From NCBI GenBank assembly GCA_900696645.1, contig CAADGV010000006.1, positions 1 through 64,000 on the forward strand: a DNA stretch of 64,000 nucleotides. The letters are read 5' to 3'. Of the stretch, positions 24,384 to 36,365 are shown one piece after another (within the stretch, counting starts at the first letter, position 1; each line of letters begins with the position of its first letter). Origin of the DNA: an uncultured Chlorobiota bacterium (GTDB lineage Bacteria > Bacteroidota > Ignavibacteria > UBA10030 > UBA6906). The position numbers and the translations under genes were made by a program. A model generated the notes under the pieces. The model saw only the letters and a list, made by a program, of their open reading frames with translations. It was not told where the DNA came from and ran no database searches.

Positions 24384-26672
24384 TTATTCCACGTACTGTG
24401 ATAGAAGAAACGGGGTAGAGACAGACTTTCTCCGTTTTTTAATCTTCATTCCAAAACCTTGTTTGAGCGTCTTTTCATCGTATCCCAGCGGCAACAAAAG
24501 CGTTTCAACGGACTTGAACACCATCTCAATATACTTCTCAATGTCATAGCCGTCATCAAAGGAGTAGAATGTCAGCGGCCTTGCTTTCTCCGGTTTCTTC
24601 TTACCGGTCGAGTCCAGCAAGACATACTCAATCGATTCTCCGGGCTGCAGCTTCATTCCTGCTTCATCGAGCGCTTTTGCGACTTCCGCATTTGCGCTTC
24701 GATTTTTGTACTCGGACGCTTCTTGCGAGATATGCCGCCGGATGACCAGTTCCATCGGATCAGCTTTTCCTGACCGAAGCAGCTCGACATATTCTTTCGC
24801 TTTTGCGAGTGCAGCTGATGCAAGGGTCTTGACTTCAGCAATAGTCTCAGCTTCACCGAGAATCTCCAACATCTCTCCCTGCATGCGTTTGATAAGCTTT
24901 GGCGTATCGCGTCGTCTGACTTCAATCCCGCGGACCTTAATCTCCTTGCTCGTATAAAATCCAACATACCGGTTCGCCGTTGGTATGTTTGGATCCATCT
25001 TTGAGGAAGGGAACAGTATCCAGTTGTAAATTCCCTCAAGTGAAATTTCTATCTTTGTTTGTGAACTCACTTCTTCGCAGAGAGCTTCGTAGTCGGCTTC
25101 TGATGCACCCTCTTTTTTGAGCCACATGCAATCAACGATTGCGTGAAGGAACTTGTATCCGCGAGATTCGGCAATTTCCTTTGCCGTCAGGATGGCGTCG
25201 CGTGAGAACGCATTCACGGATTCATGCGCCTCGATTTTGCCGAAACGGGCGTTCTTGTATCCCAAATAGCCGAAGCAGGTGACGAGCATCCACTTGAGCG
25301 CATTCTGCCGGCGATCGTAGATGTGCCATGTTGCATCTCCCGACTTCTTCAATCTCTTTTTTTCTTTCTTGTAGAAGGATCGCTTTGCAACAATTGGACG
25401 CAGGGTTTCCGGGACGATACCTTTTCGTTTTGTACAGATGGTGTATTTCAACTCAGGCACGGCTTCGTTGTTGCAGCATCTGCAATTCACCGTTTCGGGC
25501 GAGACGTTGTGTTGGACCATGATAGTAGGATACATCGAAACAAAATCCAGCTCGCCAATCTGCTCGTGATAACCCATAATGGGCTGAAAGATGAGTCCGC
25601 CGCGGTCGGCAAGAAGCAGCGTCGCAGCCGATTTGAATTCCTCCGGCTCACGCTTCTTTGCAGGAATCAAATAGTTGTTCCGGTATGCCCACGAGAGTTG
25701 CATTGACGAAAGCGCCGTACCGATGGTCGAGCGGGATTGGTGCTGAACGGGAAGCTGCGTGAGGCGGGCAATCTCCACAACGCCGTCGAGACTCGCTTCG
25801 CCCATCATGAATGAGTTTTCGGTATCGAGGTGCCAGCGCCCTGCAAGCTCGAATGCGCCGTCCTTGTGCACAATCTTTCCGTACACAAAATAGCTCGACT
25901 CCTTCGTTGTGAAGTAACCGGCCCGTTGGTCACGATTGAGGAGAAGGGGAATCTTCAGTTCAGCAGAAAGCTTTACCAACAGCGGAAGCAGAATGGCATC
26001 ACCGTATTCCGTCAGCACAATATCTGGGTCGCAGCGTTTCAGGTGAGAGTTTACGGCGTGCAGAATTTCGGCGGGCTGGTCGTTTTCGAGACTGTATGTT
26101 TCTCCCTCGTAGCTGATTTCAATCTGATATGATTTTCGGAATTTGGGAGAAACGAAATCGGGCCTGTTCATCAGCTTCATTGTTGAAAGGGGAGGCATCG
26201 AATACTCAGAGGCGTCGTATGTGTCGTGCAGCTGCCATTCTGTCAACATCCCGCTCTCGTTGATGCTGTATTCGCCGAACGCAAGAGGGAAGAGTCCCGT
26301 TTCATACAGGTAGATTTGTTGTGTCTGAATATCCGAGTTAAAGAAGACGTAGTGGGGAAAATGCCGTTCGAGCCGCTGCACTACCTGTTTGAAGCGAAGC
26401 GTGTCGTGAACGTTGATGCGAAGAACATTCCATTCTTCGTTGGAATACAATTCCCGTCGCATCACCCGGTCGAGCGTTATCTTGAAGGGAAATGATTTGA
26501 CGAGAGCCGCAACCCGTCGTTCTTCTTCAGGGGAAATATGCATGAAGAACGACGGAACAAAGGGCGTGAATGCCCGATGCTTCACGCCCTCCTTGTCAAT
26601 CAACCAAATAGTAATGCCATCGGAGGAAGGATAGATGTCAAACAGCCAGCCGGTGATGATGGAAGGTGACAC
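24384..26672 (-). CDS. B-family DNA polymerase homologue with altered catalytic motifs
   Basis: Protein of 762 residues with the PolB architecture: N-terminal domain, exonuclease-like domain (about 170-330) and polymerase domain (about 350-740). Motif A LDFVSMYP (375-382) keeps its aspartate. Motif B reads KWMLVTCFGYLGY from K460, with V where Asn is usual. Motif C is HAIVDCMW (510-517), keeping the first aspartate but having Met instead of the second of DTD. In the exonuclease domain QIEIS (183-187) replaces DIET, and TEYGDAILLP (221-230) replaces the ExoII Asn and Asp. Cys397, 399, 400 and 413 may bind zinc. GTG start. It is the last gene of a four-gene cassette. Proofreading is very probably lost; polymerase activity is uncertain. 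Archaeal-type inactivated PolB groups are the nearest parallel I recall. Confidence 0.9.
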   Translation of the reverse strand: MSPSIITGWLFDIYPSSDGITIWLIDKEGVKHRAFTPFVPSFFMHISPEEERRVAALVKSFPFKITLDRVMRRELYSNEEWNVLRINVHDTLRFKQVVQRLERHFPHYVFFNSDIQTQQIYLYETGLFPLAFGEYSINESGMLTEWQLHDTYDASEYSMPPLSTMKLMNRPDFVSPKFRKSYQIEISYEGETYSLENDQPAEILHAVNSHLKRCDPDIVLTEYGDAILLPLLVKLSAELKIPLLLNRDQRAGYFTTKESSYFVYGKIVHKDGAFELAGRWHLDTENSFMMGEASLDGVVEIARLTQLPVQHQSRSTIGTALSSMQLSWAYRNNYLIPAKKREPEEFKSAATLLLADRGGLIFQPIMGYHEQIGELDFVSMYPTIMVQHNVSPETVNCRCCNNEAVPELKYTICTKRKGIVPETLRPIVAKRSFYKKEKKRLKKSGDATWHIYDRRQNALKWMLVTCFGYLGYKNARFGKIEAHESVNAFSRDAILTAKEIAESRGYKFLHAIVDCMWLKKEGASEADYEALCEEVSSQTKIEISLEGIYNWILFPSSKMDPNIPTANRYVGFYTSKEIKVRGIEVRRRDTPKLIKRMQGEMLEILGEAETIAEVKTLASAALAKAKEYVELLRSGKADPMELVIRRHISQEASEYKNRSANAEVAKALDEAGMKLQPGESIEYVLLDSTGKKKPEKARPLTFYSFDDGYDIEKYIEMVFKSVETLLLPLGYDEKTLKQGFGMKIKKRRKSVSTPFLLSQYVE

Positions 26673-27008: not shown

Positions 27009-27094
27009 ATTTTCCGCGGAGGCGCAGAGATCACGGAGGAAAATCTCCTATAGTCATCTCGGCGATCTCGGCGTCTCTGCGGTGAGACTTTTCT
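27009..27094. repeat. Dispersed imperfect palindromic repeat, copy 1
   Basis: Imperfect palindrome with arms built on TTCCGCGGAGGCGCAGAG and its counterpart CGGCGTCTCTGCGGTGAG. It shares these arms with copies at 35568, 36447 and 44636. It overlaps the 3' end of the RecA-like gene (stop at 27054), whose last residues SLTAETPRSPR are encoded by the repeat. Confidence 0.75.
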
Positions 27095-27776
27095 TTTCCC
27101 TCTCACCCCTTTCACAAACAATGCGCTGCCCCGAGTCGGTATCCACCACACGATACACCTCATCCATTGCCAGCCGGAGTTTCGGAAACAGCGCATTGCG
27201 TTCGTTCGATGCCAATTTCATATCCAGTGACGCAAGCAGGAGGGAGATATTGTTCTGCTTGAGTTTGTGCAGAGCGGCGATCACCCGTTGCAGACTCGCC
27301 TTCACCTCAAACAGCGGTGCCTGCTCGTCATAGTACGTGTCTAACAACCCGAAGATGATGACGACGGGGGAGTGTTTTTTCTGCACAAACGCCGGAAGCC
27401 GCTCGGTAATCGTTGCCTCCATTTGGTAGCAGGTAAATGCACGGGAGATGAAAATACTCTCTAACAATTGTTCGGGAGTTACCCGCCGCTTTGCTAAACG
27501 CCGACTTGTCACTTTTCTCGCGAACTCGGCAATATAGTATGCGTCGAACCTGTTGGTGCCGTCCACCAGCGTAATGGGTACACCGGCAAGCAGCGCATGC
27601 GAGGCGGCGTACAGCGACAGGCGAAAGACACTCCGGTCGCCATACAAACAGTACAACTTGCCCGGCGGCGCCGTGTTGAACTTTTGCAGCACGGTTGTGT
27701 ACGGAACAAGCGTTTGTCCGGCCTGCATTGCGGGTTGCGGCTGAACCGTTGCGTGCCTGTTATACTGCCAGTGCAT
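27054..27776 (-). CDS. RecA-fold ATPase-like protein lacking a canonical Walker A
   Basis: 240 residues with the look of a RecA/RadA-paralogue core: strand-loop-helix LYCLYGDRSVFRLSLYAA (about 40-57) where Walker A should be but without GK[ST], a strand ITLVDGTNRFDAYYIAEFA (about 69-87), and a Walker-B-like hydrophobic strand VVIIFGLLDTYYDE (about 136-149). The C-terminal tail from about residue 228 is encoded by a dispersed repeat and is probably not ancestral. It overlaps the zinc-ribbon gene by 17 bases. Placement with a polymerase homologue recalls ImuA of the ImuA-ImuB-DnaE2 mutagenesis cassette. Function is inferred, not shown. Confidence 0.7.
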   Translation of the reverse strand: MHWQYNRHATVQPQPAMQAGQTLVPYTTVLQKFNTAPPGKLYCLYGDRSVFRLSLYAASHALLAGVPITLVDGTNRFDAYYIAEFARKVTSRRLAKRRVTPEQLLESIFISRAFTCYQMEATITERLPAFVQKKHSPVVIIFGLLDTYYDEQAPLFEVKASLQRVIAALHKLKQNNISLLLASLDMKLASNERNALFPKLRLAMDEVYRVVDTDSGQRIVCERGEREKKSLTAETPRSPR

Positions 27777-27999
27777 ACTCCCTCGCGGCGCATTCCCCGC
27801 AGATGCCGTCCGGCGTGTAGCGGACGGAACATTCCCGACATACTACCAGATTTTCTTCGAGACAGGATCGGCAATACACTTCATTCAGCGAGTCGTCCAT
27901 CCGGCCGCGGAGTTCGTGCAGTTCCCGCTCGCCAAGCGGATGCTCGCACAGGCAACACGTTGCCGTGGAAAGAGTTAGCACACGTTCGACGTTTTCCAT
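27760..27999 (-). CDS. Small zinc-ribbon protein, first gene of the PolB cassette
   Basis: 79 residues with CCLCEHPLGERE (C..C), CRSCLEE, CRECSVRY and CGEC, eight or more cysteines arranged as two zinc-binding ribbons. ATG 27999 is chosen because AAAGGTGATG precedes it and the promoter's expected transcript start is near 28033, which excludes the longer open frame reaching 28221. Its end overlaps the RecA-like gene. It may recruit the other cassette products to DNA or act as a protein-contact module; no family was recognised. Confidence 0.75.
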   Translation of the reverse strand: MENVERVLTLSTATCCLCEHPLGERELHELRGRMDDSLNEVYCRSCLEENLVVCRECSVRYTPDGICGECAAREYALAV

Positions 28000-28039: not shown

Positions 28040-28068
28040 ATGATACGACAAATTTGTCGTCTTGTCAA
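28040..28068 (-). promoter_or_regulatory. Promoter of the PolB cassette
   Basis: On the - strand TTGACA (28063-28068) and TATCAT (28040-28045) stand 17 bases apart, a near-consensus vegetative promoter. The spacer is almost wholly filled by a perfect 16-bp palindrome, so a bound repressor would block polymerase. The start codon of the first gene is about 40 bases downstream of the -10 box. Confidence 0.85.
28045..28060. promoter_or_regulatory. Palindromic operator 1 of the PolB cassette
   Basis: ACGACAAATTTGTCGT is a perfect 16-bp palindrome located between the -35 and -10 boxes. Position and symmetry indicate a dimeric repressor. The repressor is not identified; a LexA-like or HTH-type regulator is possible. 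Confidence 0.8.
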
Positions 28069-28079
28069 GAGTCGAAATA

Positions 28080-28092
28080 ACAAATTTGTCGT
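28080..28092. promoter_or_regulatory. Partial operator 2 upstream of the PolB cassette promoter
   Basis: ACAAATTTGTCGT repeats 13 of the 16 bases of operator 1, with centres 32 bp apart, about three helical turns, so two dimers would sit on the same DNA face. It also lies just ahead of the divergent sensor kinase gene. Confidence 0.65.
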
Positions 28093-28110: not shown

Positions 28111-31100
28111 GTGGAAAATAGCGGGGTGGGAGTGTTCAGGTTGACTCATATCAGTCCGCATCGTAGATTGAGTCAGTTTGTTCACCAAAACACGAGCTAC
28201 TTTCCCTTGATTCGCCCCCATTTTCGAACCGGAATCCGCTGTCTCCTCGGCCTGCTTTTATGCTCTCTTTTCACAACAGCCGGGGCACAGGTTCTTCCAT
28301 TTCACACCTACTCCGTCAACGACGGGCTGCTGCAATCTACCGTCTATTCTGTTTTTCAGAATTCCAAGGGATTCCTTTGGATTGGCACACAGGACGGGGT
28401 CAGCAAATTTGACGGCTACTCGTTCACGAACTACACAACGGATGAAGGCCTCGTCAACAACCGCGTTCTTTGCATTGCCGAGGATAATGTTGGCGCAATG
28501 TGGTTTGGCACGGCAAGCGGCGTATCCCGATTCTCGAATGGCAGATTTGAAACCTTCGGCGCCGCCCGGGGAATTCCTGATGGAATAGTGTACTCAATCC
28601 TTTCCGGCCCTGATGGCACTTTGTGGATGGGAACGAAGGGCGGACTGATTCGCATCCAATCAGATTCCGTTGCGAAGATTGTTGATGGCGCCGAAATCTT
28701 TTCCGTGTTCAAAGATAAAGCGGGCACGTTGTATCTCGGCGGAAATGGCGAAGTCATAGAATTGCGTGACGGTAAGGTTCAACGCTTCAGCACCGAATCC
28801 GGTTTACCCGCATCACCTGTCAAGTGTTTTGCTGAGAGTAGAGACGGGACACTTCTCTTGGGTACTGAAGGCAACGGCGTTTATCGGAAAGAGGCCGGGA
28901 AATTCAGTCCCGTGGGGAGCAGTGTTGCTGAACGGAAGATGGAAGTTTATTCGCTGCATGTGGATGATGAAGGAGGGATTTGGGTCGGTACATACGGTGC
29001 CGGAGTGGTGAAATATCTTGAGGGTTCCTCTTCTTCATATTCTCTTGAAAACGGGCTTCCGAGCAATGTCGTGCGTTCGATTATTCAGGATAGGGAAGGG
29101 AATATGTGGTTCGGCACATACGCCGGAATTGCCCGACTGGGTTCCGAAAAAATTCAGGCGTACACGGCCGCGGTCGGACTTCCCAACAATATCGTTATGG
29201 CGATAGCCGAGGGACCCGGTGGCAGTATCTGGTTTGGAACGTACGGCGGCGGGGTTGGCAAGCTGACGAGCGGCAGGTTTCAGACTTTTACAGTATCAAT
29301 GCCGCACAACACCATCAGGGCTGTGTTGAGCGACCGGAACGGCATCCTCTGGTTCGGTACGCACAAAGGAGTTGCTCGTCTTGCCGGCAGTACTGCGAGA
29401 GTGTACGACAAACGCCACGGCCTGCCAAGCGATGTTATTCTTTCGCTTTTAGAAGACAAGCAGGGTCGGATTTGGATGGGAACCTTTGACGGAGGAGTTA
29501 GCATTCTTGACGGCGACAAGGTCGAAGTTTTAGATACACGACATGGCCTGTTGAGCAATCGTGTCCGGTCTGTTGTTGTAGATGCCGATGGCAACATTTG
29601 GCTCGGTACCGATGGCGGCCTCAGCCGGTTTGACGGTAAAGAGTTCACGAATTTCACAACGCATGATGGCCTTGCGAACAACACGATCCGTTCGGTTACT
29701 GTTCACAGCGACGGTTCAATCTGGTGCGCAACGGATGGCGGAGGAGTGAGTGTGTACCGTAACGGTTCGTTTGTGAACTACACGACAAAAGAGGGTCTTG
29801 CCAACAATGTCTGCTTCTTTGCGTTGGAGGATTTTCACGGCAATATGTGGATTGGAACGAACAAAGGAATCAGCCGCTTTGACGGGACCTCATTCAGAAC
29901 GTATTCTGTGAAGGATGGCCTCATCTCGAATGAAATGAATTCCGGCGCCGCCCTGCGCGATCGTTCGGGGCATCTCTGGTTCGGCTCGTCACATGGCGCC
30001 ATACGAATCGATCCGAATACTCCCGACACGCAAGAAAACCCGCCACCGACATACATTACCCGGATGCGGGTGTTCGATCATGACGTGCCAGTTCAAAGCG
30101 GCCTGCAGCTTTCCCACAAGCAGAATCTGCTCGAATTTGATTTTGTCGCCATTTATCTTAGCGCTCCACATGCCGTGGAATATCACTACAGGCTTGAAGG
30201 AATGGATGAGGAATGGCGAACCACGACGCAGCGAAGCATTCCCTACGGATCTGTTCCGCCGGGCAAGTACAGGTTTGCGGTGACTGCGAGAACGAGGGGC
30301 GGTGACTGGAATCCTGAGCCGGCGACATTGGAGTTTACCATCTTGCCGCCTTTCTGGGGAACGTGGTGGTTCAGGCTGGTTGCGGTAGGTTGTACGATGC
30401 TTGTTGTCGGATTGGTTATTCGAAGGCGTGTCCTGAATGCCCGGAAAGAACTGGGACACAGGCAGGAGTTCTCCCGCCGCCTGATAGAATCGCAGGAGGC
30501 GGAACGCAAACGCATTGCGGCCGGACTGCATGACAGTCTCGGCCAGAATCTTCTTGTACTGAAGAACATGCTTCAACAGTCTGCGGAAAACCGGGAACTC
30601 AATCAGGACGGGCGGGAAGAACTTTCCTCACTATCTGCTCTGGCGCAACAATCCTTAAACGAAGTGAGGGAAATTTCGTTCGACCTTCATCCTCACGTTC
30701 TCGACCGATTGGGCCTGCAAAAAGCAATCGAGACGATGGTGGAGAAGATGTCGTCGGGTTTTCCAACCCTGATTACGGCGCAGTTCGACGGCCTTCCCCT
30801 CAGACTCGACAGCCAGCTTGAAATAGGCTTGTACCGGATTGTTCAGGAAGCGCTTTCGAATGTTGTAAAACACTCGGGGGCGAAAACAGCTTCAGTTCAG
30901 TTGCGGAAAATTTCCGATACACTCGAACTTGTCGTCACAGACAATGGCGGAGGTTTCAACGCCAACGAGTATTTGTCGCGTCCCCCGGAACAATGGAGTC
31001 TCGGCTTGGTGAGCATTGCCGAGCGTGTCCGGTTGCTTGGCGGAACGTACTCGATTTCATCCCGGCCCGGTTCGGGAACGACGCTGTCAATTCTTATTCC

Positions 31101-31119
31101 GATGAATCATGAAGAATAG
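28111..31119 (+). CDS. Propeller-sensor histidine kinase (Reg_prop, Y_Y_Y, HisKA_3)
   Basis: Sensor kinase of about 1000 residues. A signal-peptide-like stretch (CLLGLLLCSLFTTAGAQ) precedes about 14 two-component propeller repeats with the GxxWIGTxxGxSxFDG pattern (about 60-640), a Y_Y_Y domain (about 665-740), a membrane segment (about 752-772), and a NarL-type kinase core with HDSLGQN as phosphoacceptor H box (about 810) plus a HATPase domain (DNGGGF, about 945). The GTG at 28111 is a weak start; TTG 28207 gives a more natural signal peptide. It overlaps its regulator gene by 11 bases. The ligand sensed is unknown. Confidence 0.92.
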   Translation: MENSGVGVFRLTHISPHRRLSQFVHQNTSYFPLIRPHFRTGIRCLLGLLLCSLFTTAGAQVLPFHTYSVNDGLLQSTVYSVFQNSKGFLWIGTQDGVSKFDGYSFTNYTTDEGLVNNRVLCIAEDNVGAMWFGTASGVSRFSNGRFETFGAARGIPDGIVYSILSGPDGTLWMGTKGGLIRIQSDSVAKIVDGAEIFSVFKDKAGTLYLGGNGEVIELRDGKVQRFSTESGLPASPVKCFAESRDGTLLLGTEGNGVYRKEAGKFSPVGSSVAERKMEVYSLHVDDEGGIWVGTYGAGVVKYLEGSSSSYSLENGLPSNVVRSIIQDREGNMWFGTYAGIARLGSEKIQAYTAAVGLPNNIVMAIAEGPGGSIWFGTYGGGVGKLTSGRFQTFTVSMPHNTIRAVLSDRNGILWFGTHKGVARLAGSTARVYDKRHGLPSDVILSLLEDKQGRIWMGTFDGGVSILDGDKVEVLDTRHGLLSNRVRSVVVDADGNIWLGTDGGLSRFDGKEFTNFTTHDGLANNTIRSVTVHSDGSIWCATDGGGVSVYRNGSFVNYTTKEGLANNVCFFALEDFHGNMWIGTNKGISRFDGTSFRTYSVKDGLISNEMNSGAALRDRSGHLWFGSSHGAIRIDPNTPDTQENPPPTYITRMRVFDHDVPVQSGLQLSHKQNLLEFDFVAIYLSAPHAVEYHYRLEGMDEEWRTTTQRSIPYGSVPPGKYRFAVTARTRGGDWNPEPATLEFTILPPFWGTWWFRLVAVGCTMLVVGLVIRRRVLNARKELGHRQEFSRRLIESQEAERKRIAAGLHDSLGQNLLVLKNMLQQSAENRELNQDGREELSSLSALAQQSLNEVREISFDLHPHVLDRLGLQKAIETMVEKMSSGFPTLITAQFDGLPLRLDSQLEIGLYRIVQEALSNVVKHSGAKTASVQLRKISDTLELVVTDNGGGFNANEYLSRPPEQWSLGLVSIAERVRLLGGTYSISSRPGSGTTLSILIPMNHEE

Positions 31120-31765
31120 CAAAATGACGATCATACTTGCAGATGATCATCCCTTGTTCCGGCAGGGGATGCTGCGAGTGCTTGAGCATGACGCTGATAT
31201 TTCAGTTCTCGGAGAAACCGGAAACGGAAAAGATGCCCTCAGACTTATTCTTGAAAAGAAACCCGACATCGCCGTGCTGGATATTTCCATGCCGGGAATG
31301 GAAGGGATTGACGTCGTGAAGGAAGCGATGAAGGATAACTCCTGTTCAACTGAGTTTGTTATTCTGACGATGTACCAGGAGGAAGCATATTTTACTGAAG
31401 CAATGGATGCCGGTGTGAAAGGATATTTATTGAAAGATAGCGCGCCGTCGGATATACTTGCCTGCATTCAATCTGTTGCAGACGGAATTCCGTATGTGAG
31501 CCCGCTCGTTTCCCATTATCTTGTCCGTCGTACGACAAGACGCCAACCACGGAATGCTAAACCCTCGATTGATGACCTGACTGCACAGGAGCGCCGCGTC
31601 CTGAAACTACTCAGTCAGAACAAAACCAGCCGTGAGATTGCCGGGGATCTCGGCATCAGCATCCGCACTGTTCAACATCACCGCAATAATATCTGCACAA
31701 AGCTGAATCTCGAAGGCTATAACAAACTCCTTCAATTCGCCCTCGAAAACCGAAGTTCTCTGTAA
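31109..31765 (+). CDS. LuxR/NarL-type response regulator
   Basis: Receiver plus LuxR helix-turn-helix, 218 residues. The receiver keeps the acidic pair (ADDHPLF), the phosphoacceptor in VLDISMPGMEG (about D58) and lysine in YLLKDS. The HTH is LTAQERRVLKLLSQNKTSREIA with DLGISIRTVQHHRNNICTKL. The start overlaps the kinase gene by 11 bases, so the pair is co-translated. Targets are not visible here. Confidence 0.96.
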   Translation: MKNSKMTIILADDHPLFRQGMLRVLEHDADISVLGETGNGKDALRLILEKKPDIAVLDISMPGMEGIDVVKEAMKDNSCSTEFVILTMYQEEAYFTEAMDAGVKGYLLKDSAPSDILACIQSVADGIPYVSPLVSHYLVRRTTRRQPRNAKPSIDDLTAQERRVLKLLSQNKTSREIAGDLGISIRTVQHHRNNICTKLNLEGYNKLLQFALENRSSL

Positions 31766-31885
31766 GGTCCTTCCGCAATACGCTTCGCACGGGCAGGTAA
31801 GCACATCTGCCTATAAGAACAAGCACATCTCTCCATTGTAATTACCTCTCAGTAGTTCTATCATCATTCCCAACATCTTACACCT

Positions 31886-32257
31886 ATGCGAATTCTACTC
31901 GTTGACGACAGCGCCATGTTCCGCAATCTGGTCAGGAAATTCTTGAGCCGTAACCTATTGATAAAACACGAGATACAGGAATGCACAAGCGGCCGGAATG
32001 CGCTTGGTGTGTATAAATCCTTCTCGCCGGATTGGGTGCTGATGGATATTAAAATGGATGGCTCGGATGGGCTTGTTGCTGCACGGCAAATTCGTGAGCT
32101 CGATCCGGAAGCAAATATCGTGATGCTCACTCAGTACAGCGAGCGGGCGTATCGTGAAGAAGCCGATGCTGTTGGCGTGAAAGGATACGTCCTGAAAGAA
32201 TACCTCGGAAACATTCTTCCTTTTCTCAATTCTCAAGCGGAGGCACAACCGGAATGA
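31886..32257 (+). CDS. Single-domain response regulator
   Basis: Receiver domain alone, 123 residues, with DDSAMF, phosphoacceptor in LMDIKMDGSDG (about D53), LTQYS and VLKEY. There is no output domain, so it acts by protein contact or phosphotransfer. It follows the LuxR regulator by 120 bases and overlaps the next lipoprotein gene (ATGA). It could share the upstream kinase. Confidence 0.92.
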   Translation: MRILLVDDSAMFRNLVRKFLSRNLLIKHEIQECTSGRNALGVYKSFSPDWVLMDIKMDGSDGLVAARQIRELDPEANIVMLTQYSERAYREEADAVGVKGYVLKEYLGNILPFLNSQAEAQPE

Positions 32258-35713: not shown

Positions 35714-35914
35714 CTAAGCAGAATGCAGCCGCTGCCTTTTCTTCCGCGGCGGGCGTTGCGGAGCAGCGGTCCCGGCACCGAGTTGTTTTCGAAATGCTTC
35801 TGCACGGCTGCGGATATACTGTAAACGCTGTTTCGGGGTCATATCCTTCATCTCGGCATACATTGAAGCCTGAATGTCGTTCTTCATCTTCACAGCATCA
35901 AACTTCTTCTTCAT
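35714..35914 (-). CDS. Small putative antitoxin partner of the PIN protein
   Basis: 66 residues, basic and helical: MKKKFDAVKMKNDIQ and KDMTPKQRLQYIRS resemble short proteins that I recall beside PIN-domain genes (KFDCVxMK...MTPEE). It overlaps the PIN gene by 17 bases and follows it in transcription. The Arg/Lys-rich C-terminus (PRKKRQR) could bind nucleic acid. A cognate antitoxin role is likely from context but not proven. Confidence 0.65.
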   Translation of the reverse strand: MKKKFDAVKMKNDIQASMYAEMKDMTPKQRLQYIRSRAEAFRKQLGAGTAAPQRPPRKKRQRLHSA

Positions 35915-36365
35915 AACTCAACTCCTTTGGCGATCTGATATCAATAATTGTGTAGCCTTTCCGTAAGTTTACCGCATTGAACTGTCTGATTCTATCGATG
36001 TTGACCAAATGGCGAAAGTTCCAGCTTAGGATCAGATCAGCGTGATAAACGGAAGCCGTCGCCACATGTAGTGCATCATTGTACGAGGAGTCGGTCAATG
36101 CTCCGTCGGATATGTACGCTTCGGCCAGACCTTCTATTTCTTCTGAAACTGTAGCATGCACGATAGATTTGCTGGGGAGGCTGCGAAGAACATTCTGAAA
36201 TCTCGTTGGCGCTGATACTATCTCCGCCTGAGTAGTTTCCGAAACGAGTATAATGAACTTCTTGCTTCGGACGCTTCTGAAGAATTGAGTGCTGTCTTCA
36301 GCAAATTCCGGATCGAAACACCCCCCGAACACTGACGTGTCAACGTAGATGAGTCGCTGCTTCAA
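35898..36365 (-). CDS. PIN-domain protein, VapC-like putative toxin
   Basis: 155-residue PIN-domain nuclease fold, predicted magnesium-dependent RNase. YVDTSVFGG holds the first acidic residue (D9), TQAEIVS a conserved glutamate, and DALHVATA with SWNFRHLVN the C-terminal acidic/Asn region. The next gene in the direction of transcription overlaps by 17 bases and resembles an antitoxin. Toxin-first order is less common for VapBC-type pairs. Confidence 0.85.
   Translation of the reverse strand: MKQRLIYVDTSVFGGCFDPEFAEDSTQFFRSVRSKKFIILVSETTQAEIVSAPTRFQNVLRSLPSKSIVHATVSEEIEGLAEAYISDGALTDSSYNDALHVATASVYHADLILSWNFRHLVNIDRIRQFNAVNLRKGYTIIDIRSPKELSYEEEV

Follow-up and report, generated by a model that had tools for sequence, protein, structure and literature searches.

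Within a window of 64,000 nucleotides from an uncultured Chlorobiota bacterium (GenBank assembly GCA_900696645.1, contig CAADGV010000006.1), which is the whole stretch of DNA analysed here, a minus-strand operon encodes proteins of 79, 240, 94 and 762 amino acids (aa), the last of them a family-B DNA polymerase. Our subject is the tandem operator in the promoter of this operon. The first gene starts at 27999, approximately 45 bases downstream of the -10 hexamer, and the operon ends at 24384. Direct reading of the minus strand gives TTGACA, a 17-nucleotide spacer and TATCAT, and the spacer holds a perfect 16-bp palindrome, ACGACAAATTTGTCGT (proximal operator, O1), the final base of which is also the first base of the -10 hexamer (Table 1). 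An upstream copy, ATAACAAATTTGTCGT (distal operator, O2), carries two mismatches to O1 and lies at a centre-to-centre distance of 32 bp. The operator consensus is ACGACA-N4-TGTCGT. A first-pass annotation, made from the letters of the window alone, had already described the palindrome filling this spacer as a repressor-type operator in the promoter of a PolB cassette; promoter, palindrome and spacing read as it stated, but the second copy is identical at 14 of 16 positions and not at 13.

What the first-pass annotation called the PolB cassette is an iRadA-PPB2-PolB2 translesion mutasome operon, a known type, with PPB2 assigned by position only. Motif C of the polymerase (HAIVDCMW) has another residue in place of the first Asp of DxD but retains the second, and D514 is invariant. 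The predicted structure of the iRadA-like protein (predicted local distance difference test, pLDDT, 86.5) has RadA/Rad51 as its top Foldseek matches (E 7e-10), and GDRSVF stands where the Walker A loop belongs. The polymerase motif, the RadA fold without Walker A and the iRadA-PPB2-PolB2 gene order of the window cassette therefore identify the operon, given that PolB2 has been described with the first DxD aspartate replaced, iRadA as RadA-type without Walker A, and this order as the only one reported for bacterial PolB2 cassettes (PMC11791011). Both lexA and DUF72 genes are reported as enriched neighbours of bacterial polB2 (Timinskas et al. 2025, PMC11791011). PPB2 is a small helical protein (arCOG07300); almost every cassette keeps the 94-aa gene between those of iRadA and PolB2, and the product of this gene gave no match in profile searches. 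The Cys-rich product of the first gene has no Pfam or NCBIfam match and, judged by eye, is probably zinc-binding. In one genome of the same genus (G001, L046), an open reading frame (ORF) that by eye resembles a REP-type transposase sits between iRadA and PPB2, ~1.2 kb upstream of PolB2. A scan of viral contigs returned one nearly full-length distant relative of PolB2 (33% identity) and otherwise short polymerase matches; the relative is on a contig classed as viral (L234, IMGVR_UViG_3300037225_001304), which may move the polymerase from one lineage to another.

Table 1 Features of the PolB2 cassette and its promoter, in window positions.
Feature	Position	Strand	Remarks
Proximal operator O1, ACGACAAATTTGTCGT	28045-28060		Between -35 and -10; matrix score equals the maximum, 28.8 bits; kept in 38 cassette promoters
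Distal weaker operator O2, ATAACAAATTTGTCGT (14/16)	28077-28092		16.7 bits; 31/32-bp spacing in 27/38 cassette promoters
-35 hexamer TTGACA	28063-28068	-	TTGACA-NN-operator retained in nearly all orthologous promoters
-10 hexamer TATCAT, shares the last base of O1	28040-28045	-	AT following the operator conserved
First operon gene, 79-aa Cys-rich small protein	27760-27999	-	Relatives in L046, L050 and L052 directly after the operator
iRadA-like subunit, 240 aa, RadA/Rad51 fold, Walker A lost	27054-27776	-	AlphaFold2 and Foldseek
PPB2-like protein, 94 aa	26706-26990	-	Assigned by position and conservation
PolB2, family-B DNA polymerase, 762 aa	24384-26672	-	PF00136, E 1e-37

The operator is conserved before orthologous cassettes in close and distant relatives, a check that the first-pass annotation had proposed and from which its operator call emerges strengthened. 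PolB2 matches were found in 75/100 relatives, and in most of the surroundings that were fetched the operator precedes the cassette's first gene. TTGACA-NN-operator is intact in 38 orthologous promoters across the order; two read TTGATT/TTGACT. Named records with the same arrangement are labelled Ignavibacteria, Ignavibacteriae, Bacteroidota and, in one case, Chlorobiaceae. Using a matrix of the proximal sites with a cut-off of 4 bits and offsets of 18 to 45 bp on either side, we found a second copy at -31 or -32 in 27 of the 38 promoters (18 of them at -32, the other 9 at -31), with one each at -33, -30 and -29 and two downstream at +31/+32; there were none at other offsets within this range. 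The distal copy is regularly weaker than the proximal copy. The earlier suggestion that two dimers could stack on one DNA face agrees at the sequence level with this spacing of about three helical turns, whereas contact between the dimers is something we infer. The operon that follows the operator opens, in several relatives, with a DinB-type polymerase and then a DUF72-like gene, or with DUF72; in the G069 cassette the operator lies ~5 kb upstream of polB2.

A search of the 4.2-Mb genome of the window by sequence pattern returned three occurrences of the form ACGACAWWWWTGTCGT, compared with ~0.014 expected from base composition. Far from being scattered at random, all three are just 5' of genes, each in the arrangement TTGACA-NN-operator-AT: in the PolB2 operon promoter, at C9:116830 ahead of a cupin_7 gene (ChrR-type) and a 66-aa gene, and at C6:99354 between a DUF72 gene and the gene of a 216-aa regulator. 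The half-site pattern ACGACANNNNTGTCGT has four matches in the genome and none for the reversed control. Other exact GACAWWWWTGTC sites were rejected as operators, being located within coding sequence (frr, L140; histidine kinase, L143); the match at C42:68483 is repeated letter for letter in distant genomes, which suggests that it reflects coding constraint. Extending the regulon through sites with up to two mismatches was too noisy (25 sites compared with 14 for the reversed control) and was abandoned.

The regulator gene beside the C6:99354 site (G000:C6:99527-100174) lies outside the window, 71 kb away. Its product combines HTH_3 (5e-11), Phage_CI_repr (2e-5) and Peptidase_S24 (PF00717, 2e-26) domains; in sequence comparison with solved structures, its C-terminal half hits chains of LexA, UmuD and lambda CI (best E 5e-12) and its N-terminal part hits P22 c2 chains (E 1.5e-5). 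Gly105, Ser139 and Lys175 are invariant in 30/30 orthologs, at distances that we take to resemble those of the cleavage site, serine and lysine of Escherichia coli LexA (A84-G85, S119 and K156). This XRE-S24 protein is the sole S24 protein of the genome, in which no match to the LexA_DNA_bind domain (PF01726) of canonical LexA was found, and it scores 66 bits against the TIGR00498 cut-off of 111. Of 100 relatives, 60 have a match to it, in one case a weak one (31%). Across 247 genomes sampled from the phylum, matches above 50% identity are confined to the order, and those found outside the order reach only 28-40% identity. The AlphaFold model of the protein was poor (pLDDT 51, nine similar rows) and was not used.

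The XRE-S24 protein is most likely the repressor acting on the cassette operator, judging from the way gene and site are associated across genomes. One or more operators precede the repressor gene in all 36 loci inspected, and in most of these loci a strong site is paired with a weaker one at a distance of 30-33 bp; the former usually occupies the -35/-10 spacer of a divergent promoter, mostly that of DUF72. In ~10 relatives the repressor gene and the PolB2 cassette lie side by side in divergent orientation, with the operator between them. Presence of operator and repressor agrees in 44 of 48 cassettes (37 with both, 7 with neither; the mixed cases are two of each kind). All nine operator-less cassettes are in genomes bearing canonical LexA, and in many cassettes of this type lexA is the first gene, as is also seen in Nitrospirota. 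On a PolB2 tree built with a quick method, lexA-type cassettes are nested among operator-type ones and the regulator states need four changes, at least two of them forced by well-supported branches. One genome (G058) has two PolB2 cassettes (L082 and L091), one with the XRE-S24 operator and the other without it and linked to canonical lexA. A search for a palindrome common to the lexA-led cassettes, in the sequence before them, brought up only a TATA-rich dyad, GTATA-N6-TATAC, in 6/13, and we claim no LexA box.

Some further genes lie near the repressor or the operator. In relatives, additional operators stand ahead of genes for DUF5131, for DUF72 and for a possible three-Cys-motif partner (L312:2992, L313:2886, L314:2989, L315:1189). 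In the window genome, genes of these kinds are found near the repressor (L105:13445-16390) without a site. A gene of ~63 aa (MTTKPEMQKKLETLRREYRSVYSMLSMMEKG..., coiled-coil-like by eye) is also preceded by the operator in two relatives (L317:2316, L318:3007). In the window, genes for a propeller-type sensor histidine kinase, a LuxR-type response regulator and a second receiver protein run divergently from the cassette (28111-32257), and a PIN-domain-like gene with a small adjoining ORF on the minus strand (35714-36365) looks by eye like a toxin-antitoxin pair.

Taken together, the tandem operator is very probably an SOS-like switch on the PolB2 operon, with the XRE-S24 repressor taking the place of LexA in these Ignavibacteria-type bacteria and freed by damage-triggered self-cleavage. 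A protein dimer bound to a palindrome between the -35 and -10 hexamers blocks RNA polymerase. At the cassette, a dimer of the 216-aa repressor, through its phage CI/c2-type helix-turn-helix, would exclude RNA polymerase from O1, and a second dimer on the weaker O2, three helical turns away on the same face, would strengthen repression. The same operator would also govern the repressor itself, the divergent DUF72 gene and the cupin operon. Upon DNA damage, filaments of RecA on single-stranded DNA would cause the LexA-type S24 autoprotease to cut itself between Ala104 and Gly105 (catalytic Ser139/Lys175), the dimer would leave the operator and the small regulon would be induced. Repressor-DNA binding, dimer stacking and RecA-induced cleavage are thus predictions from sequence. 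They follow the precedent of LexA/CI-type S24 repressors, which self-cleave on RecA filaments, with error-prone polymerases at the core of the SOS regulon (PMC8565304).

Several observations weigh against this interpretation. At the recA locus (L308), where the first-pass annotation had proposed looking for the operator, no site exceeds 4 bits out of a possible 28.8, which leaves the regulon without a core SOS gene. Position 104 of the repressor is Ala in 25/30 orthologs and Gly in 5/30, that is, a glycine at the cleavage position. The operator occurs without a repressor match in G005 (79% complete) and G063 (96% complete). Two cassettes that lack the operator belong to genomes with both repressor and lexA; the Fisher test of co-occurrence (p 1.6e-5) ignores the relatedness of the genomes and is uncorrected for phylogeny. 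RecA-independent S24 regulators also exist (IrvR, PMC7101444). IrvR lends some weight to an arrangement in which the XRE-S24 protein does act as repressor but leaves the operator on a cue other than RecA-driven self-cleavage, which might be a redox signal, a partner protein or a different protease, as do the ChrR-type cupin within the regulon and the position of recA outside it. We nevertheless consider such a cue unlikely, given that the cleavage-site Gly, the Ser and the Lys are invariant, LexA substitutes at the same cassette in sister lineages, and the targets are DNA-damage tolerance genes (PolB2, DinB and DUF72).

It is quite improbable that a different regulator binds the operator and that the XRE-S24 gene is merely another of its targets. 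The binding of XRE-S24 has been deduced from genomics only, and the two genomes with the operator and no detected repressor gene would suit this explanation, but it must account for operators before every repressor gene inspected, for the linkage in ~10 genomes and for a repressor confined to the operator-bearing order in the phylum sample, and no other regulator gene was seen recurring beside operator sites. Control of the site by the divergent two-component system (28111-31765) is very improbable: this system does lie directly beside the cassette in divergent orientation, but among the fetched cassettes the kinase is retained in this position in the same genus only, whereas the operator is kept across the order and at repressor promoters. 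The count within the window would by itself leave room for a chance palindrome in a promoter, being weakly significant (at least two matches in 6/100 shuffles with three mismatches allowed), but conservation at 38 cassettes and 36 repressor promoters, together with three sites where 0.014 are expected, refutes chance and leaves it a negligible probability. A BlaI/MecI/CopY-type operator was rejected on its differing spacing and flanks and on the XRE-S24 gene to which the site leads.

Beyond the switch itself, we lean slightly towards a wider reading, in which a dedicated RecA-gated phage-type repressor has little under its control besides the PolB2 mutasome and DUF72, acts through an operator for two dimers at a fixed 32-bp spacing and is not coupled to recA. 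At this one operon it and canonical LexA would have replaced each other several times, and DUF72 would be marked as a regular companion of PolB2 in damage tolerance. The motif, the pair of sites at 32 bp and the narrow regulon centred on PolB2 appear to be new; a limited literature search found no paper on this operator. The analysis supplies a candidate regulator and operator for the bacterial PolB2 mutasome, the control of which has hitherto been guessed from adjoining lexA genes, and gives exact sites and residues for mutation. It would extend to another large lineage the idea that phage-like S24 repressors take over SOS control, and would tie the uncharacterised DUF72 family to translesion synthesis through shared control. 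The target operon stays while regulator and operator are exchanged, which makes regulator replacement traceable on one tree.

Compared with known systems, the closest likeness is to the non-canonical LexA proteins of Bacteroidetes (PMC8565304), which share a CI-like helix-turn-helix with a self-cleaving S24 domain, autoregulation (here, sites in the repressor's own promoter), a genome without canonical LexA, control of error-prone polymerases and repeated sites in promoters. Their published motifs are GGA-N5-TCC or CTAA-N5-TTAG (Sanchez-Osuna et al. 2021, PMC8565304), and that paper makes no mention of Ignavibacteria or Chlorobi. The motif described here, ACGACA-N4-TGTCGT, matches neither, and the first-pass remark that the palindrome is not a known LexA box holds for these two as well; the system here differs further in the constant 32-bp spacing of its paired sites and in a very small regulon that centres on PolB2 and DUF72 and lacks recA. 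By analogy, the system would work like a non-canonical LexA that fails two features of the published group, the motif and the presence of recA in the regulon. HdiR of lactic acid bacteria and UmuDAb of Acinetobacter (PMC11332147) likewise place a non-LexA S24-type repressor over error-prone polymerases, but in other lineages, at other DNA sites and with UmuC/Pol V rather than PolB2 as target, and UmuDAb needs the corepressor DdrR (PMC11332147). The PolB2 mutasome of PMC11791011 has the same gene order with lexA and DUF72 as neighbours; its main text covers no promoters or repressors, whereas the present analysis links the regulator, the operator and the shared control of DUF72. The arrangement also recalls the tandem operators of phages lambda and P22, at which CI/c2-type repressor dimers occupy neighbouring palindromes. 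Those phage operators have three sites ~20-24 bp apart, whereas here a repair operon of the chromosome has two, separated by 32 bp.
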